A stretch of 64,000 nt of DNA from Desulfogranum japonicum DSM 18378 (lineage in GTDB: Bacteria; Desulfobacterota; Desulfobulbia; Desulfobulbales; Desulfobulbaceae), in assembly GCF_000429945.1 (NCBI RefSeq), contig NZ_AUCV01000002.1, forward strand, positions 124,001-188,000, in the 5' to 3' direction. The notes beneath the pieces were generated by a model, which was given only the letters and a program-made list of their open reading frames with translations, was not told the DNA's origin and did no database searches. The translations under genes were made by a program, and so were the position numbers. This document shows positions 9,601-55,572 of this stretch, in pieces (positions within the stretch are counted from its first letter, which is position 1; every line of letters begins with the position of its first letter).

Positions 9601-9667
9601 CCACACATTAACTGTACACAAAGCAGCAGATAAGCAGAGTGGTTTTCGTTTTGCCAGCGATTATTAA
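6662..9667 (+). CDS. dnaE2: Error-prone DNA polymerase III alpha subunit DnaE2 (ImuC)
   Basis: C-family polymerase that performs error-prone lesion bypass with ImuB at the clamp. Its 1001 residues fit DnaE2, which is shorter than replicative DnaE (about 1160). The N-terminal PHP domain (1-~210) starts with the metal-site motif HSHFSFMRG at 7-15. The polymerase core has GRGSGAASLVAY at 306-317 and the catalytic PDIDIDF at 345-351. The helix-hairpin-helix region and an OB-fold (about 900-990) follow. The DnaE2-type opening (VHSHFSFMRGTAS) and the imuB neighbour separate it from the housekeeping DnaE. The 101-bp gap before it holds two TATAAT-like boxes (6579-6584, 6638-6643) without convincing -35 boxes, so it may be read from the imuB promoter. 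Confidence 0.95.
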   Translation: MIPLGVHSHFSFMRGTASMPALCRYARKQGYSTVGLTDLGSLHGLWSFLAACEREQIKPIIGAEIHSNRQQIYCLVKNLRGYRHLCQLLTRAHRQLNFDLYQSLQELHQGMVCLAATPSLLRYCHEIEADTFAALPGGPNRKNSEMFRMAKQLHIPAVALSDAFFLQPSDHVLHQLLRAIDTNSSLSRINMQEQVEKNRYLAAPTEYRQRFNQWPETIMATHAVAERCNYRKPVFGLVMPPYTEDDARSILRYAAYEGALKRYGKPLPHPVVSRLDHELQVIEKMRFSSYFLVVRDIIGPVARTCGRGSGAASLVAYCLFITNVCPVKHNLYFERFLNPGRTDPPDIDIDFSWDERDTVLTGVLERFGCRAAMVCNHVLMQPRMAIRETAKVFGLPGAEVSQVTKRLPWMWRAHHHQEGYMDYISSLPQLRNETFAEPWPRIFRMAAQIAGTPRNLSVHPGGVIITPKPVDHYVPVETAPKGIPIIQWEKDGAEEAGLVKIDLLGNRSLGVIRDTIQAIGEQGIIFDEHSWEPEDDISTRQNIAKGNTMGCFYIESPATRLLQRKARTGDFAHLVLHSSIIRPAANEYIREYLRRLHGGQWQPLHPLVGNVLNETYGIMVYQEDVSRVAVQFGFSHADADRLRKIMSKKDRHHTLVDYQSQFSQSAAEKGVGQEDIARIWDMMMSFSGYSFCKPHSASYAKVSFQAAYLKTHYPAEFMAAVISNQGGFYSTFAYVSEARRLGIAIQPPDVNRSRIHWHGHDKKLRVGLMALNGLSHATMHTIIQKRNRGPYGSLMDFLQKVKPERNEAHALIHCGALDCLEPHTDKQQNRGVLFWILNIWLQQKHASPARLFGHGCSAPKLPEQPPLERLRNEYRILGFLCHIHPITLYDNYRQRFQTIKAEQISNSCSENQTIRFLGWLITGKIVGTKHGDLMEFLSFEDETGQVECTFFPQVYKRYCHLLHSKGPLLLEGIIDKEFGVHTLTVHKAADKQSGFRFASDY

Positions 9668-9733: not shown

Positions 9734-11686
9734 CTATTGCCGAAAAGTATCCAGGGTTATTTTCAATTGTTCTGCCAGCCTAGAGAGTTCTTCGGCACTG
9801 GCCTGCACTTTATTGCTGCCGCTGTCGACGGCCTGGGATGCTTGATTGACCATGGATATTTCGTCTGCAATACCATTTGCCGCCACAGTACTCTGAGCAA
9901 CATGTTCATTCACCTCTGAAATACCTTCGGAGATCTGGGCAACATTTTGGCTTATTTCTGACGTAGCCGCAGACTGTTCCTCCACAGAGGTGGCGATAGT
10001 GGTTATTATGGCATTGATTTCACTGATAACCGTGGAAATACCTTCAATATCCATAATTGTTGTTTGGGTGGAACTCTGCATTTCTTCAATCTGCTTTTTA
10101 ATATCCACAGTTGCCTCAGCTGTTTGTCTGGCCAGCTCCTTAATTTCATTAGCCACAACGGCAAATCCTTTCCCAGCTTCCCCTGCCCGTGCCGCTTCAA
10201 TGGTAGCATTAAGAGCAAGTAGATTGGTCTGCTCGGATATTTCAGTGATAGCTTCGGTTACTTTACCTATTCTGTCCGCGCTCCCTCCCAATTCACTCAT
10301 TTTACCGGAGGCTAAAAGAGTTTTTTCAACTGCCTGCTCTGAAATAATCTTCGCCTGTTCCGTTTCTTGAGCTATTGTGCTGATTGTTGAAGACATTTCT
10401 TCAGTAGAGGAGGCCACCATATTGGTATTGGTGGCTGACTGCTCCATTGCCACTGAAACGGAATGGATATTGGCGTTCATGTCTTGCGTTGAGGCGGCAA
10501 CATTTTTCGTTTTCTGTGCTGCATCACTCGCCGCACCAATCAAATCACTAGAAATAACACTCAGTTCATCTGAAGAAGAAGAGATGGTATTGATGCCCAG
10601 GGAAAGATCGGTGATGATAGCCGAAATATTGGTGCGCATTGTATTAAGACTTGCAGCCAGCTCCTGAAACTCATATCTGAATCTCCCTGAAAGTTCCTGG
10701 GACAGTTTCCCGCTGGCAATATTTTTGGCAAAAACTTCCATGTGCTTGAGGGGAGTGACAAACAATTTTCTCATCAGGAAGTTGATCAGCAAAATAACAA
10801 GAACTACAGTGGCTATTCCCATGATCAAGAGAATAATTTTCTGCTTGCTCGCGCTTGCTGCAAGCTCATCTTCATAGGCACTCATTGCTATTACCCAACC
10901 TGTGGCTTCGTTGGTTGTAAATGCCAGTATCTTCTTTTCTCCTTTCCACGTATAGCTCACTGTGCCTTCTTTATTCTTCAGCATGGTCTGGGTAAAAGCA
11001 TATTGCGATATATTCTCCAGAAGAAGCTTTTTATCAGCTGCATGGGCAATAAGTCGTCCCTCATGGTCGATGACGAAAGCATACCCTCTTTTGCCAAAGG
11101 CAATGGGATCGATGAAAACCCTGGTAAAACTGGTCCAGTTGGGGACGACCGCCGCTCCACCCACAATATCTCCGTTCCTGTCATAGACAGGCTGTGAGAT
11201 GGCAAAAAACAGGGAGCCATCAACTTTGCTTTTAAGCAGGGTTTTCTGAATAAATTCAGCCTTGCCGGAAAGAGCAGCCTTACAATAATCTCTACTGCTT
11301 ACATCGACACCCTTAATATTTTTTAATCCCGAATCAAAACCCTGGGTGATTTTTCCTTGCTGGTCAAACACATAAAGATAATTGTAATTGCTGTATTTCT
11401 TGATGAATGTTTCCAGGCGTTTTTCCCCGACCGGGCTCTCTCCGGTCAAGGAATTGGTAATGGCAGACTGGTGAGCTAGAGAAAAGAGCAGATTACCTGC
11501 CCCGTTGAGATATTGGTTGAGGGATTGGTTGACAGAACGGGCCATGCCCAGCATGCTTTCCTGTTGATTGTGCAGCACCATGCTTCTTGAGGAAAAATTG
11601 ATATAGAGCACGAGGCCTGCCACGGCAATGAGAATCACAAAAGAGACATACATGGTCAAAATTCTACTGATACTTTTCTTAAACAT
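9734..11686 (-). CDS. Methyl-accepting chemotaxis protein with dCache-like sensor
   Basis: Inner-membrane chemoreceptor of 650 residues. A transmembrane helix (about 11-31) precedes a periplasmic double-Cache-like sensor (about 35-280) with [18 protein letters not shown] and [15 protein letters not shown], typical of the two Cache lobes. A second transmembrane helix (about 283-305), a HAMP domain with [17 protein letters not shown], and the long cytoplasmic coiled-coil signalling domain follow. The conserved hairpin tip is clear ([19 protein letters not shown], then [14 protein letters not shown]). The ligand is unknown; dCache domains usually bind amino acids, organic acids or amines. It is monocistronic here. 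No che genes are in the window. Confidence 0.93.
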
Positions 11687-49274: not shown

Positions 49275-49336
49275 AGTGCCGGTCCATTTTAGGGTATAAT
49301 CCAAAAAATGGAAAATACCTTGTATGGACAGGCACT
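49275..49336. repeat. Inverted repeat AGTGCCxGTCCA
   Basis: AGTGCCGGTCCA (49275-49286) and TGGACAGGCACT (49325-49336) are inverted with one mismatch and a 38-nt spacer that itself can fold (CCATTTT/AAAATGG). The same AGTGCCTGTCCA occurs at 55530-55541. Their similar ends suggest a short non-autonomous element or a half of one. Confidence 0.45.
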
Positions 49337-49467: not shown

Positions 49468-50601
49468 GTGCTTAGGAAAACTCTATATGTTTTGCTTGTT
49501 CTCAATATTGTTACAACATGCATTACCTTACAGGGATGCAGGAACAGGCAAGATGATATTCCTGTGCTTCGACTTGGCTACGCTCCCCACGATCACCATT
49601 CTCCTCTTTATATAGCAGCCTCTAATCCCCAATACTTCAGGGACAATGGTGGTATCTTTCTGGAAGAGGTTGTCAAGAAAGAGAAATATTTCCTTGTTGC
49701 ACATGAAAAACGTATTGCCGAAATCATCATCAAAAGCAGTACCGGTGGTAAAGAAATTATCAGGAAACTGATCGAAGGCCAGTATGATTTCTCCTTTGGT
49801 GGAGTACCTGCCGTGCTCCATTTTATCGATGCAGGAGCTGACATCTCCATAATTTCTCCGGTAATGGCGGAAGGTGCCGGCTTTGTGGTCGCCAAGGATC
49901 TCCCAGTTTCCAACTGGCAGGAATTTATTGCATTCGTTCGTGCCCACCCGACCACATTACGAATTGGTTACAAAATTGATGTCTCCGTACATAACCTGAT
50001 TTTTGAATTTGCCCTGCAGGATGAAAATATTGCTTTTCAAAAAAACAGAGAACATGCACAAGGGAAAATACGTATACTCAACCTTCACGGAGCCCAAAAC
50101 CTTATACCTGCCCTGGAAAACCGCCTGATTGACGGCTTTGTTGTTAATCAACCCTATCCTGCGCTTGCAGAGACCTCGGGTGTAGGAAAAATCCTGGCAC
50201 AACTGCGGGACCTTCCCCCCGAAGGAAGGTGGCACGGGCACCCCTGTTGCGCCCTTGCTGCAAGCAATGCATTTATTCAAGATAATCACGCAGTCTCAAC
50301 CGCTCTCACGGCTTTGCTCATGCGGGCCAACCAGTTTATAACCAGGGACCCTGCTCTCAGCCAGGAACAGATTGCCCAATGGTTGAACCTGCCCATAGAA
50401 GTAGAAAAACGATCACTTCCGACCATTCTCTTCACATCTGAATTAGATAATCAATGGCATGAGGGAGTGGATTTCTGGATACATGCTATGATGGACAAAG
50501 GCAAGCTGCAGAACAAAGTCAAAGAAGCAGTAATGCACAAACGGTTGCAGGAAGTAGTCTACCGACTGGATATCTACACTGAAGCCCGGGATATGCTATA
50601 A
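49468..50601 (+). CDS. NMT1/SsuA-like substrate-binding lipoprotein
   Basis: A 377-residue periplasmic binding protein anchored as a lipoprotein (LQGC lipobox, Cys24). The fold is like SsuA/TauA/NMT1 proteins that bind sulphonates, nitrate or pyrimidines: LRLGYAPHDHHSPLYIAAS near the start, YDFSFGGVPAVLHFID, and RLIDGFVVNQPYPALAE. No ABC permease or ATPase is beside it. Instead its stop overlaps the start of a PAS hybrid kinase by 1 bp (TAATG). It could serve as the sensor for that kinase, like binding-protein-linked kinases elsewhere. Confidence 0.85.
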   Translation: MLRKTLYVLLVLNIVTTCITLQGCRNRQDDIPVLRLGYAPHDHHSPLYIAASNPQYFRDNGGIFLEEVVKKEKYFLVAHEKRIAEIIIKSSTGGKEIIRKLIEGQYDFSFGGVPAVLHFIDAGADISIISPVMAEGAGFVVAKDLPVSNWQEFIAFVRAHPTTLRIGYKIDVSVHNLIFEFALQDENIAFQKNREHAQGKIRILNLHGAQNLIPALENRLIDGFVVNQPYPALAETSGVGKILAQLRDLPPEGRWHGHPCCALAASNAFIQDNHAVSTALTALLMRANQFITRDPALSQEQIAQWLNLPIEVEKRSLPTILFTSELDNQWHEGVDFWIHAMMDKGKLQNKVKEAVMHKRLQEVVYRLDIYTEARDML

Positions 50602-53156
50602 TGCGCTGGTCTCTGAACTCTAAACTTTTTTGTTTATTCCTTCCCTTAACCATAGTTTCCCTTGTCTTTGGTTTTATTGTCTTCAACAGCCTTACACAAA
50701 TTGAAAAAGACAACAGACATATCCGTGAGTTCAAATCTTTTCAAATCCAACTCAAGTCTTTAGAGACATGGCAAAAAAAACTCATAAATCACCAAGCCAG
50801 CCTACAGAAAGAAACATTCCTTCAGGAAATCAGCATAACAAAGCAAATGGCGGAGAAACTGGTAGATCTGCCCCTTGAGCTGAACAGGGAAACGGCAAAC
50901 AAACTGAATGGCTTCTCCGAATTGTTTGAAGTTTTTTCAAATTCTTACATTGAGCTCTTTGAACTGTATCAGCAAGATGCGGCAATACCCCAAAAAAGCG
51001 CATCTTACCTACGCAATATTCAACAGATCAGTGCGCAATCCGCCTATACATCGACTGATTCGACGAATAATAAATTGCCACTGCTCATATCTCATCTAAT
51101 ATTTACTTTTCGCAATCTGCTGATTCGAGTACACCACGAAAATGACATCACCGCCATAAAGGACGGTAAGGAATTCCTTCCTGACATACTCGAAGAAATT
51201 AACGATTCACAGGTTGCCACCCTGTCCTATCAACTTTTTGATATTCTGGAGGAAGATTATGTAAGACATCTGGAGATACAGGATAGAGAAGCCTTTCTTT
51301 CAGAAACGACCCAGTATGTGTTTACTACAGCCAATGAAATAGCCGATGAAATCCTCGACGGTCTTGATCAGACCAAGCGGTATTCCCGGATTCTTATCCT
51401 GATTACAGTAGGTGGAGCCATTTGTCTCAACCTATTTTGCTGGTTGGTTGCTTCCCGCTATATTGCCACCTTTCTCGGTATACAGAAAAAAGCAATCCAG
51501 TCCATTGAAAGTGGCAACTATCAGCTGGAACTTGGTCCTCTTCCCAAAGATGAAATCGGGGATCTGTCCAGCACCATGATTGCAATGGCCGCACGCCTAG
51601 AAGAAAGTCTGAGCCAGCTGACATCTTCAGAGAAACGCCACCGTAACCTGGTTGAAAATCTCAACGATCTTCTCTGGGAAACTGATACAGAGCACCGGAT
51701 TACTTTTACCAACGCAGCAGCAGAGTCAATACTTGGCTACAGTCCTGAAGAACTTGTAAATGTCCCTATTACAGATCTGATTATACACACCGATGATCCT
51801 CATACACAGAGGGCTCACGAGTATTTCTCCCGTGCTGAATCCTTTCAAGGTACGTTTTCCTTTAAACATAAGAGCGGTAACACTGTGCTCATAGAAGTGG
51901 ATGCCCGGGCCATATATCACCAAGGAGATTTCCTTGGTTTTCGTGGTCTGGGAATGAATATCACTGAAAAAAATCTCCTGGAACAGCAGTTACGGCAGTC
52001 TCAAAAATTGGAATCCATTGGCAGACTGGCCGGAGGAATCGCCCATGATTACAACAATATGCTGAGTGTAATCATCGGTTACAGTGAGTTATCCCTTGAT
52101 GATCTCCCAGAGGATCATGAAGTGCATGATAATATAAAAGAAATTCACGCTGCAGCTCTACGTTCCATGGAAATTACCCGACAACTCCTTGCCTTTGCCA
52201 GGAAACAGACTATTTCACCGGAAATATTGGACATTAATAAGGTGATCTCAGGCATGACCAAAATGCTTCAGCGTCTCATTGGAGAAAACATAACTCTCGC
52301 ATGGATACCGGAGCAAGATGTCTGGTCCATCAAGATGGATCCTTCCCAGATTGACCAGATCCTCGCCAATCTTTGTATCAATGCCCGCGATGCTATTCAA
52401 GATATAGGTACGATTACCATTGCGACCAAAAATGTCCGCATTGACAGCATAATAAAATATGGCACTTTTACCCTTAACAAAGGGCATTATATCATGCTGA
52501 CAGTGAGTGATACGGGCTGCGGAATGGATTCAGTAGTGAAGAGCAAGCTTTTTGAACCGTTCTTTTCCACAAAAGGAGAACAGGGAACAGGCCTTGGCCT
52601 TGCCACAGTATACGGAATAGTCAAACAAAACCAGGGGTTCGTTCATGTATACAGTGAACTTGGCAAAGGCACCGTGTTCAAAGTGTACATCCCAAGATTT
52701 GAACGGCAGGATGACTGGCCTGAATCAGAAGCTTCACTTGAGTTGGCCATACCTTTGGGCAGGGGAGAAAAAATTCTACTGGTCGAAGATGAGCAGGCAA
52801 TAACCGGTGTGGTGGAAAACATGCTGAAGAAATTGAATTACGTACCCATAATAGCAAATTCTCCAGAGCAGGCTCTCTCTCTTGCATCAGTCTACAACGA
52901 CTTTGATCTCCTTATAACAGATGTTATAATGCCGCATATGAACGGCAGGGAACTTGCTGAAAAAATTCTCCAAAGCCACAGGCACATCAAAACATTATAC
53001 ATGTCCGGATATACTGCGGATATAATCGCCAATCAAGGGGTTCTGCATGAAGGAATTCATTTCATTCAAAAGCCTTTCAGCAAGGGCGAACTTGCCATGA
53101 AAATTCAGACAATGCTGCAACCCACCCTGTCAAATTCTGACAAAAAATCTCAATGA
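50601..53156 (+). CDS. Hybrid histidine kinase with PAS domain and receiver
   Basis: A 851-residue membrane sensor. It has a transmembrane helix (about 10-32), a helical periplasmic region (33-262), a second helix (263-285), a HAMP-like linker, PAS (about 345-455), HisKA with His482 in GGIAHDYNNML, HATPase (about 580-700) with GTGLGLATV, and a receiver (725-845) with Asp774. The long periplasmic part may contact the binding lipoprotein upstream. The genes overlap on both sides: TAATG upstream and ATGA with the permease downstream. No separate output regulator is adjacent. Confidence 0.92.
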   Translation: MRWSLNSKLFCLFLPLTIVSLVFGFIVFNSLTQIEKDNRHIREFKSFQIQLKSLETWQKKLINHQASLQKETFLQEISITKQMAEKLVDLPLELNRETANKLNGFSELFEVFSNSYIELFELYQQDAAIPQKSASYLRNIQQISAQSAYTSTDSTNNKLPLLISHLIFTFRNLLIRVHHENDITAIKDGKEFLPDILEEINDSQVATLSYQLFDILEEDYVRHLEIQDREAFLSETTQYVFTTANEIADEILDGLDQTKRYSRILILITVGGAICLNLFCWLVASRYIATFLGIQKKAIQSIESGNYQLELGPLPKDEIGDLSSTMIAMAARLEESLSQLTSSEKRHRNLVENLNDLLWETDTEHRITFTNAAAESILGYSPEELVNVPITDLIIHTDDPHTQRAHEYFSRAESFQGTFSFKHKSGNTVLIEVDARAIYHQGDFLGFRGLGMNITEKNLLEQQLRQSQKLESIGRLAGGIAHDYNNMLSVIIGYSELSLDDLPEDHEVHDNIKEIHAAALRSMEITRQLLAFARKQTISPEILDINKVISGMTKMLQRLIGENITLAWIPEQDVWSIKMDPSQIDQILANLCINARDAIQDIGTITIATKNVRIDSIIKYGTFTLNKGHYIMLTVSDTGCGMDSVVKSKLFEPFFSTKGEQGTGLGLATVYGIVKQNQGFVHVYSELGKGTVFKVYIPRFERQDDWPESEASLELAIPLGRGEKILLVEDEQAITGVVENMLKKLNYVPIIANSPEQALSLASVYNDFDLLITDVIMPHMNGRELAEKILQSHRHIKTLYMSGYTADIIANQGVLHEGIHFIQKPFSKGELAMKIQTMLQPTLSNSDKKSQ

Positions 53157-55531
53157 GCCTGGAAATACTACTTGTTCTCATCATATTGATGATAGTAATC
53201 ATTGTACTTATCACCGAGGTTATGCCCCTTGAAGTGCTGGCCCTTCTGGTTCTGGGAACATTGGCTATTACCGGCCTGGTAAATCCCACAGAGGCTTTGG
53301 CAGGATTCAGTAACCCAGCAGTTGTAACTATCTGGGCTGTCTTTATTCTCAGCGGAGGACTCACCCGTACCGGTATTGCCAATATTCTCGGACGAAATCT
53401 TTTGAAGGTGGTCGGTACAGGCATTTCACGACTTATCATTTCTATAATGCTACTTTCCGGCATCCTGTCCGCCTTTATGAATAATGTTGCGGTAGCTGCT
53501 CTTATGCTGCCGGTTGTTATGGATATATCCAGGAAAACAGGTAAGTCTCCTTCCATCCTGTTGATGCCGCTGGCCTATGGATCACTGCTTGGTGGCGTCA
53601 CAACCATGATAGGTACTCCTCCCAACATTCTGGTCAGTGAAGCATTACGTGCCAATGGTCTTGTGCCATTCGGACTTTTCGATTTCACCCCGGTGGGAAT
53701 ACTTGTAATGATTTTCGGCATGTTGTTTGTCACCTTCATAGGAAGACATTTTTTACCACAGCAGACACTTCTCGATTCAGATAAAAACGAGGAAAATCTC
53801 ATCATACAACAATATCGGATTCAGGAGCGACTATTCAAAATCTATATCCCAAAAAAATCAGCTCTGGTTGGCCATACACTGGCTTCAAGTCATCTCGGTT
53901 CTGGATTTGGTTTGAATGTCATTGGCATCAGCCGTGATCGCCAGACTTTCCTTGCACCTGATCCATTTGAGAAAATTAAAGGTAATGATGAACTGATTGT
54001 TGAGGGACGCCTGGATCGAATTCAGGAAATGAACAACTGGGGACAACTGTTATCAGAGGATATTTCTCTGCAGACAAACATGCTGCAATGTTTTGACATG
54101 CAAGTGGCAGAGGTACAGATTACAGAAAACAATCCATGGGTTGGCAAAACGATTTCCACCCTGAACTTTCGCAATCGGTATGGAGTAAACGTACTGGAAA
54201 TTTTGCGTTTTGACCGTAAAGTCAACATCCGTATCAAAGCAGAGGAAATTGTTGCCGGAGACATACTGGTCCTACATGGACCAATAGACAACATTAACAA
54301 GCTGCACAACAGAGAAGGTGTGGCATCTCCCGTTATTCTCGAAAAAGATATTGTAGAGCAAAAATACGAACACGATAACAACATTCGTTTGTTCAGTGTC
54401 CCGGACACTTCACGCCTGCTTGGTATGACGATTTCCGATAGTTGTCTGGGTGACGCCCTGGATATACAGATTCTCGCCATTGTCAGAGAAGACAACAGCG
54501 CAGTTATACCGGCTTCAGATGTAATGTTTGAACCAGGCGACAGACTGCTGGTTTCTGGAATGTGCGATCTGGTTGGAGCTGTTCTCCTGCAGGGACTTGA
54601 AGCGGTTTTCGAGCATAATCAGTCAACGATAGATGATTTTTCCCTTCTGCAGAGTGACAAGGTAGGCTTTGTGGAAGTAATCCTTTCTCCCCATTCAACT
54701 CTCGCAGGCCAGTCATTACAACAAATCAGCTTCCGTGAAAAATTCGGACTGACAGTCCTGGCCGTATTAAGAAAAGGAAAAATTACCCGCTCAGGGTTAC
54801 GAGATTTCCAACTGCAGCTTGGCGACGCCATGTTAGTTTTTGGAGAATGGAAAAAATTGCACGCCCTTTCCCAAAACCCTGACTTTGTCATTTTAACCGA
54901 AAAAATGCAGGAAATAGCCCGGGAAGAAAAAGCGTCAACTGCACTTGCTATTATGACGTTTGTACTGCTTCCGGTTATATTTGGTTGGGTGCCAATCTAT
55001 ATTGCCGTAGTTGTAGGAGCTGCATTCATGGTCCTGACGAAGTGCCTGACCATGGAAGAAGCCTACCGTTATATTGAGTGGAAGGCTGTGTTTCTGATTG
55101 CGGGAATGCTGCCGCTTGGAACGGCACTTGATAAATCGGGAGCCGCCGCCTTGGCTGCGGAAAAGGTAATTACCGTATTTGGATCATTTGGCCCGTATGG
55201 TGTGCTCCTGGGAATACTCAGTATCACATTCCTGGCAACCAGTATAATCCCCACTGCAGCATTAGTGGTTCTTATGGTCCCGATTGCGCTTAAAATTTCT
55301 GTGAGCCTCGGAATGTCTCCCTATCCCTTCATGATGGGAATCGCCATGGCCGCGTCTTCCAGTTTTACATCACCAATTTCTCATCCTGCCAATGTACTGG
55401 TCATGGGCCCCGGGGGATATAAATTCATGGATTACGTAAAAATTGGCGTTCCCCTGACGCTGGGAATATTGGTCCTGCTGATGGCGATTATTCCATTTTA
55501 CTGGCCGTTTACTGGAGAGATTTCAAGCTAG
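53153..55531 (+). CDS. SLC13/DASS-family permease with four RCK_C-like domains
   Basis: A 792-residue membrane transporter. The two halves of the DASS/ArsB-like transport fold (about 1-205 and 595-790) flank a long cytoplasmic insert. Family motifs include FMNNVAVAALMLPV (107-120) and TSIIPTAALVVLMVP in the second half. The insert holds four consecutive RCK_C (TrkA_C)-like units at about 226-290, 316-382, 410-475 and 502-570, each with the pattern of a helix-turn start (VGHTLASSHLG, VGKTISTLN, LGMTISDSCLG, LAGQSLQQI) and a GD..LV.G loop. Most relatives have one or two. The substrate is not predictable; SLC13 members take up sulphate, dicarboxylates or phosphate. It is coupled to the kinase gene by a 4-bp overlap. 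Confidence 0.9.
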   Translation: MSLEILLVLIILMIVIIVLITEVMPLEVLALLVLGTLAITGLVNPTEALAGFSNPAVVTIWAVFILSGGLTRTGIANILGRNLLKVVGTGISRLIISIMLLSGILSAFMNNVAVAALMLPVVMDISRKTGKSPSILLMPLAYGSLLGGVTTMIGTPPNILVSEALRANGLVPFGLFDFTPVGILVMIFGMLFVTFIGRHFLPQQTLLDSDKNEENLIIQQYRIQERLFKIYIPKKSALVGHTLASSHLGSGFGLNVIGISRDRQTFLAPDPFEKIKGNDELIVEGRLDRIQEMNNWGQLLSEDISLQTNMLQCFDMQVAEVQITENNPWVGKTISTLNFRNRYGVNVLEILRFDRKVNIRIKAEEIVAGDILVLHGPIDNINKLHNREGVASPVILEKDIVEQKYEHDNNIRLFSVPDTSRLLGMTISDSCLGDALDIQILAIVREDNSAVIPASDVMFEPGDRLLVSGMCDLVGAVLLQGLEAVFEHNQSTIDDFSLLQSDKVGFVEVILSPHSTLAGQSLQQISFREKFGLTVLAVLRKGKITRSGLRDFQLQLGDAMLVFGEWKKLHALSQNPDFVILTEKMQEIAREEKASTALAIMTFVLLPVIFGWVPIYIAVVVGAAFMVLTKCLTMEEAYRYIEWKAVFLIAGMLPLGTALDKSGAAALAAEKVITVFGSFGPYGVLLGILSITFLATSIIPTAALVVLMVPIALKISVSLGMSPYPFMMGIAMAASSSFTSPISHPANVLVMGPGGYKFMDYVKIGVPLTLGILVLLMAIIPFYWPFTGEISS

Positions 55532-55572
55532 TGCCTGTCCAGAAATACCTTTTTACCCGAGGGACTCAGCTT

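Follow-up and report, generated by a model that had tools for sequence, protein, structure and literature searches.

Why should a substrate-binding lipoprotein of the kind that serves ATP-binding cassette (ABC) importers be encoded together with a sensor kinase and an unrelated permease? This question is raised by three adjoining genes in a 64,000-nucleotide stretch of the genome of Desulfogranum japonicum DSM 18378 (the whole stretch is called the window hereafter), which encode an NMT1-type binding lipoprotein, a hybrid sensor kinase and an SLC13-type permease. We found that the lipoprotein and the kinase recur together in many genomes, whereas the permease was seen beside them only here. 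We consider it likely, by analogy with TorT/TorS, that the two form a binding-protein-dependent sensor built on an NMT1-type lipoprotein. The elements concerned are as follows.

49468..50601, + strand: NMT1-type substrate-binding lipoprotein, 377 amino acids (aa), GTG start, lipobox Cys24, conserved His43, His44, Cys260 and Cys261
50601..53156, + strand: hybrid sensor kinase, 851 aa, with a transmembrane segment, a helical periplasmic domain, a second transmembrane segment, HAMP, PAS, HisKA, HATPase and receiver
50712..51362, + strand: periplasmic sensor domain (kinase residues 38-254), predicted fold McpS/TorS-like
53153..55531, + strand: CitMHS/DASS-like (SLC13-type) permease, 792 aa, added to the pair locally

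The coordinates of the three open reading frames (ORFs), all on the + strand, agree with the initial annotation of the window, with an overlap of 1 base pair (bp) between the first and second genes and of 4 bp between the second and third. No ABC permease was recognised by eye among the ORFs neighbouring the three genes.

Conservation of the lipoprotein-kinase pair

Using the lipoprotein as a query, matches at E <= 1e-12 were obtained in 16 of the 257 genomes of the order and in 25 of 395 genomes drawn from the phylum, a set that overlaps the order set and includes distant ABC relatives; the phylum neighbourhoods leave out twelve weaker matches (E 1e-13 to 1e-16). A scan of genome contigs with the lipoprotein sequence alone gave no relative, and a narrower alignment then gave 17 loci from named genomes, twelve of them duplicates that were counted once. 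The five new loci belong to Chromatiales (L124 and L138; loci are numbered with L and genomes with G), Malonomonas rubra (L135) and two metagenome-assembled genomes (MAGs), one of Desulfobacteraceae (L131) and one of Denitrovibrio (L134). The clade that contains the window's lipoprotein, named here the signalling clade, thus comprises 26 distinct loci, with L079 and L080 taken as one and with the fragments L081, L082 and L134 placed by identity, outside the tree described below.

In 23 of these 26 loci a partner with the same sensor region is encoded directly downstream of the lipoprotein gene, and the pair was observed in the window's order also in distant members of the phylum, in the two Chromatiales and in the Denitrovibrio MAG. 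The 23 include genes truncated at a contig end (L070, L078, L079/L080 and L082), one lipoprotein split in two (L134) and one interrupted kinase (L077). The spacing between the two genes, measured in 19 loci, ranges from -14 to +6 bp, and ten of the values are overlaps of 1 or 4 bp (that of L075, a 4-bp overlap, was taken from coordinates). The two families are therefore not rare neighbours, and the initial annotation's description of a binding lipoprotein coupled to a kinase, with no ABC permease, holds well beyond this genome.

The same association can be observed in the distribution of the two proteins among the 257 genomes. The lipoprotein occurs in 16 genomes (seven family codes, 15 genera), the sensor region in 19, and both in 15 against 1.2 expected (Fisher p 9e-20, a value that is too small because the genomes are related and no correction was made). 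The cut-off for the sensor region, E <= 1e-60, was set after a gap had been seen: 45 genomes match at 1e-8, and the value of 3e-63 is followed by that of G053, 8e-29. The lipoprotein without the sensor was found in G065, as a fragment, and the sensor without the lipoprotein in G231, whose contig starts inside the kinase, and in G222-G224. Moreover, the pairwise distances of lipoprotein and sensor are correlated (19 pairs, r 0.57, reached in 0 of 10,000 permutations, with species relatedness uncorrected); this comparison omits L070, which is cut by a contig end, and L080, L082 and L134 have no lipoprotein row. Lipoprotein and kinase are, accordingly, a conserved two-gene module.

Some individual loci can be described separately. 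In L077:8665-13914 (G037) the sensor part stops near 9627 and the catalytic part restarts near 10851, which is the interrupted kinase gene mentioned above. L085 (G313) and L087 (G511) have a common neighbourhood, with a gene for an ethylbenzene-dehydrogenase-type heme protein near L087. The distant sensor-kinase relative of G053 (L179:3494-9091) is encoded two genes downstream of an ABC_sub_bind protein, from which a different kinase gene separates it, and perhaps represents the same kind of receptor with another class of binding protein.

Separation of the lipoprotein from its ABC-linked relatives

The window's lipoprotein belongs to the NMT1_2 family (PF13379, E 1e-27), and its score of 35.4 bits against the NCBIfam SaoX model NF040735 is below the cut-off of 300. 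The structural model (predicted local distance difference test, pLDDT, 94.3; predicted template modelling score, pTM, 0.88) was closest to the CmpC regulatory domain, 3un6, NrtA, CmpA and SsuA (Z 27-33). Thi5, which we take to carry a Cys-rich motif in the region of Cys260-Cys261, was another structural match. A sequence search of the PDB with the lipoprotein as a lone query gave no match; a profile of the lipoprotein retrieved six sequences, with 3qsl and 3un6 on top. Searches of plasmids yielded only distant matches (21-26% identity).

A tree of 30 proteins separates 23 signalling rows from seven ABC-linked rows (split support 98/98). A related permease and ATPase are encoded nearby in all seven loci of the ABC sister clade; L088 was labelled as ABC in the tree before the permease check, and a permease with 36% identity was later found there. 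These permeases and ATPases resemble SaoP and SaoA of NCBIfam and thus a Sao-like ABC transporter, with all sister-clade scores below the curated cut-offs (SaoP 178/295, SaoA 251/360 and SaoX 23/300 bits). At none of the searched signalling-clade loci, the window neighbourhood included, was a permease of the sister-clade kind found, and the ABC ATPases near a few of these loci are unrelated. The lipobox Cys is present in 19/19 signalling rows counted against 0/7 ABC rows, several of which start with Tat-like (twin-arginine) signals (in L090, a Tat match by model).

Four residues are common to both clades: His43 (19/19 signalling and 7/7 ABC rows), His44 (19/19 and 6/7), and Cys260 and Cys261 (20/20 and 7/7 each). 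The residue and lipobox counts omit L076, whose N-terminus is out of frame, and L085 and L087, which have no partner; Asn replaces His44 in L087. Conserved in the signalling clade only are E103, P114, M133, Q175, L177, F224, A262 and Y365, with the window's protein having His at position 175.

Given its relatives, the lipoprotein could be thought to serve an ABC importer encoded elsewhere in the genome, its position before the kinase being a regulatory convenience. The ABC linkage of the sister clade would suit this explanation, as would the related permeases of the window's genome, the closest of which reach at most 34% identity to the sister-clade permease. The absence of that permease from the searched signalling-clade loci, and the lipobox in the place of the Tat or other signals of the ABC rows, speak against it, and we regard it as highly improbable. 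A matched ABC operon elsewhere, with which the initial annotation would have been at odds, was not found: the binding-protein family has no other representative in the genome at E <= 0.001, and the genome's permeases are no closer than stated.

The sensor kinase and the proposed mechanism

The window's kinase is a HAMP-PAS-HisKA-HATPase-receiver hybrid; its periplasmic part (about residues 31-262) gave no Pfam match. In an alignment of 23 sequences the sensor region shows 17-29% identity to the window's, and Glu217 is its sole invariant residue on the periplasmic side. Ten partners were scanned for their outputs. Eight are kinases, six of them with one receiver, one with two receivers and Hpt (L068) and one with no receiver (L134), and two have GGDEF-EAL outputs (L124 and L138); the input of the partner is conserved and its output is variable.

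The structural model for kinase residues 1-340 consists of helices only (pLDDT 86.5, pTM 0.67). Its top structural match was the ligand domain of McpS (Z 18.4, root mean square deviation, rmsd, 2.4 over 215 residues), a score that others equalled or almost equalled; further matches were the TorS sensor domain (Z 17.0, rmsd 2.4, 203 residues), the TorS-TorT complexes (Z 14.4-14.6) and, at 13.8, a designed helical protein. In the predicted model two helical bundles are stacked as in McpS and TorS, which is the arrangement expected of a helical bimodular (HBM) domain. The TorS sensor is itself, we assume, of the HBM type, in agreement with the structural match.

On this basis, the lipoprotein, tethered in the periplasm, would bind a small ligand and dock on the kinase at the helical domain in the periplasm, and the lipoprotein's ligand state would cross the membrane via HAMP and PAS to the kinase core and the receiver, as from TorT to TorS. 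The lipoprotein would share its origin with ABC-transport binding proteins, with the transporter absent and a lipid anchor present. In this genome the permease, attached at the pair's 3' end, would be co-expressed with the pair.

Several observations weigh against such a sensor. A lipoprotein with no kinase is encoded at L085, at L087 and, as a fragment of 105 aa, at L081, and the genomes G222-G224 (loci L176, L177 and L178) have the kinase without the lipoprotein. In L176 and L177 the kinase follows purA, a spot at which G043 (L069) has purA, lipoprotein and kinase in succession (purA was read by eye in all of these). The kinase can therefore exist without an adjacent lipoprotein gene, which counts against a strict need for it. 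Helical bundles match easily by shape, a Z of about 13 being reachable through the common arrangement, and the matches to the sensor fold share 10-12% identity, with Foldseek E values of 0.02 or worse and none at <= 0.001. A profile search of the PDB with the sensor listed neither McpS nor TorS; since it gave other helical proteins, the best being an ancestral PcpI (1e-6) and an aromatic-acid chemoreceptor (0.004), the fold is assigned from structure only. Additionally, McpS-like domains can bind ligands directly, and according to the PDB titles McpS was crystallised with malate or succinate bound.

A sensor domain that binds its ligand directly, like McpS, with a lipoprotein that merely scavenges or delivers the ligand, would account for the kinases that lack a lipoprotein and for the place of a direct binder at the top of the structural matches. 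The strong pairing and the near-zero spacing are not in favour of this explanation, and a single invariant residue leaves little for a common ligand site; we give it a slim chance, and retain binding through the lipoprotein as the preferred reading.

The permease as a local addition

Four further features belong to the third gene and to the edges of the three-gene cassette, the last of them being described in the text below.

53768..54952, + strand: the permease's cytoplasmic insert, which holds four TrkA_C stretches; its boundaries (residues 206-600) were drawn by eye
49275..49336, no strand assigned: a dispersed 12-bp repeat in two copies that face each other, one of them mismatched, upstream of the cassette
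55530..55541, + strand: third 12-bp repeat copy, in overlap with the stop codon of the permease gene

The permease has the CitMHS/Na_sulph_symp body of DASS/SLC13 permeases (300 and 66.7 bits, with the body above the Pfam cut-off) and differs from them by the inserted TrkA_C stretches, four in number; its score against the NCBIfam DASS model (151.5 bits) is below the cut-off of 198.6, the match being split by the insert. The large cytoplasmic insert in the initial annotation is thus real, although it is no mark of the three-gene arrangement, as permease relatives of the same length carry it as lone genes. Relatives at E <= 1e-60 were found in 30 of the 257 genomes, the window's included (31-75% identity). 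In 18 of the other 29 the neighbourhood was analysed, and no relative of either lipoprotein or sensor region occurs among the ORFs shown; two of these neighbourhoods are short upstream (L112, about 0.4 kb, and L120, about 1.1 kb), and in L119 an unrelated kinase lies four ORFs from the permease. Lipoprotein and permease co-occur in three of the 257 genomes against 1.9 expected (p 0.28), and in the two besides the window's (G015 and G073) they are on different contigs.

The corresponding site was also compared within the genus. In G002 and G006 a PilZ-like gene (by eye) adjoins a GmhB-like gene and the cassette is absent; in G003 the PilZ-like gene is 0.6 kb from the next conserved gene, and in G004 and G005 no cassette is found beside the GmhB-like gene. 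The 12-bp repeat that edges the cassette has 25 exact copies in the genome, against one for a reversed control, and a mismatched copy lies inside the permease gene (55041-55052). It may be an element of the REP type (repetitive extragenic palindromic) or an insertion-element end. The repeats at the edges and the empty site in relatives fit one local insertion or rearrangement.

The initial annotation had proposed a three-gene uptake-signalling unit. In such a unit the lipoprotein would sense the substrate of the permease, and the kinase, or a nucleotide bound to TrkA_C, would control uptake. For this lineage the proposal has some merit: the 4-bp overlap lacks an obvious ribosome site, so that co-translation of kinase and permease is likely; the genome has no other close permease copy at E <= 1e-60, so that the permease may now depend on the kinase gene for its expression; and the same-genus sites without the cassette suggest that the three genes may have come together. 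The arrangement was nevertheless seen in this genome only. When the gene order was searched elsewhere, only the lipoprotein-kinase part recurred, with no pair gene beside the permease in 18/18 other genomes examined and no co-occurrence beyond expectation, so that the unit in its general form was not borne out. Even as a local unit we consider it rather unlikely. The permease seems to be an ordinary transporter that stands alone elsewhere, its link to the pair being real in this genome and not general, and kinase control of the permease is possible in this one genome.

The source assembly comprises 5.8 Mb in 124 contigs and contains a dsrA gene above the curated cut-off. Promoter-like sites (16, shuffled mean 13.0) and terminator-like sites (7, shuffled mean 7.0) were about as frequent as in shuffled sequence and played no part in the interpretation.

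A possible ligand

Tentatively, and with the odds against it, the pair could be a sensor family for a soft metal, a metalloid or a thiol-reactive compound. The suggestion is based on the conserved His and Cys-Cys of the lipoprotein, which are aligned with those of 3un6, a structure with a zinc-bound title that retains one His and the Cys-Cys in the profile alignment, and on the double-cubane reductases frequently encoded near the sister clade. Judging from secondary structure, His43, His44, Cys260 and Cys261 would lie in the ligand cleft. Beside the ABC sister clade, a double-cubane reductase is encoded in five of seven loci (L089, L090, L091, L093 and L094), with YedF in L093, and the sister-clade importer is possibly tied to an anaerobic reductase. 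A chloride-channel gene before the L067 pair and a gene read by eye as thiC after the L073 pair were single cases, and both were rejected as ligand clues.

Comparison with known systems

TorT presumably belongs to another class of binding proteins than NMT1, and the window's protein, of the NMT1 type and lipid-anchored, is in this respect unlike it. TorT-TorS (PDB 3o1h, 3o1i and 3o1j; kinase domain alone, 3i9y and 3i9w) is likewise formed by a binding protein and a hybrid kinase, with the same predicted helical sensor fold. TorS is described in PMC6321045 as a kinase activated by TorT, and CtpL as an HBM receptor activated by the binding protein PstS; McpS and CtpL are chemoreceptors, unlike the window's kinase.

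AioX-AioS, ArxX and ArrX, as presented in PMC5908839, likewise branch off from a family of binding proteins for ABC transport, serve signalling only and have a histidine kinase encoded with them. AioX differs in being PhnD-like and in having a response-regulator gene adjacent, and its likeness to the present pair is considered here as one of design; by analogy, it is a precedent for a transport-type binding protein turned sensor (PMC5908839). According to PMC9602780, the feeding of receptors by binding proteins is considered widespread, yet only about ten kinase cases have been characterised. Small keyword searches found no published NMT1-class binding protein feeding a kinase, from which absence from print does not follow.

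A binding protein that feeds a sensor is therefore of a known kind, and what is new here is probably an NMT1-class lipoprotein in that role, working like TorT-TorS. The family presents both sides of a split, the binding protein of ABC transport on one and the dedicated partner of a sensor on the other; the lipid anchor and the varied outputs can be read from the sequences. It has members in Malonomonas rubra DSM 5091 and Lamprobacter modestohalophilus DSM 25653, and is therefore testable. If the proposed reading is true, an NMT1-class binding protein would drive HBM-type receptors with plug-in outputs, either kinase or cyclic di-GMP (c-di-GMP).

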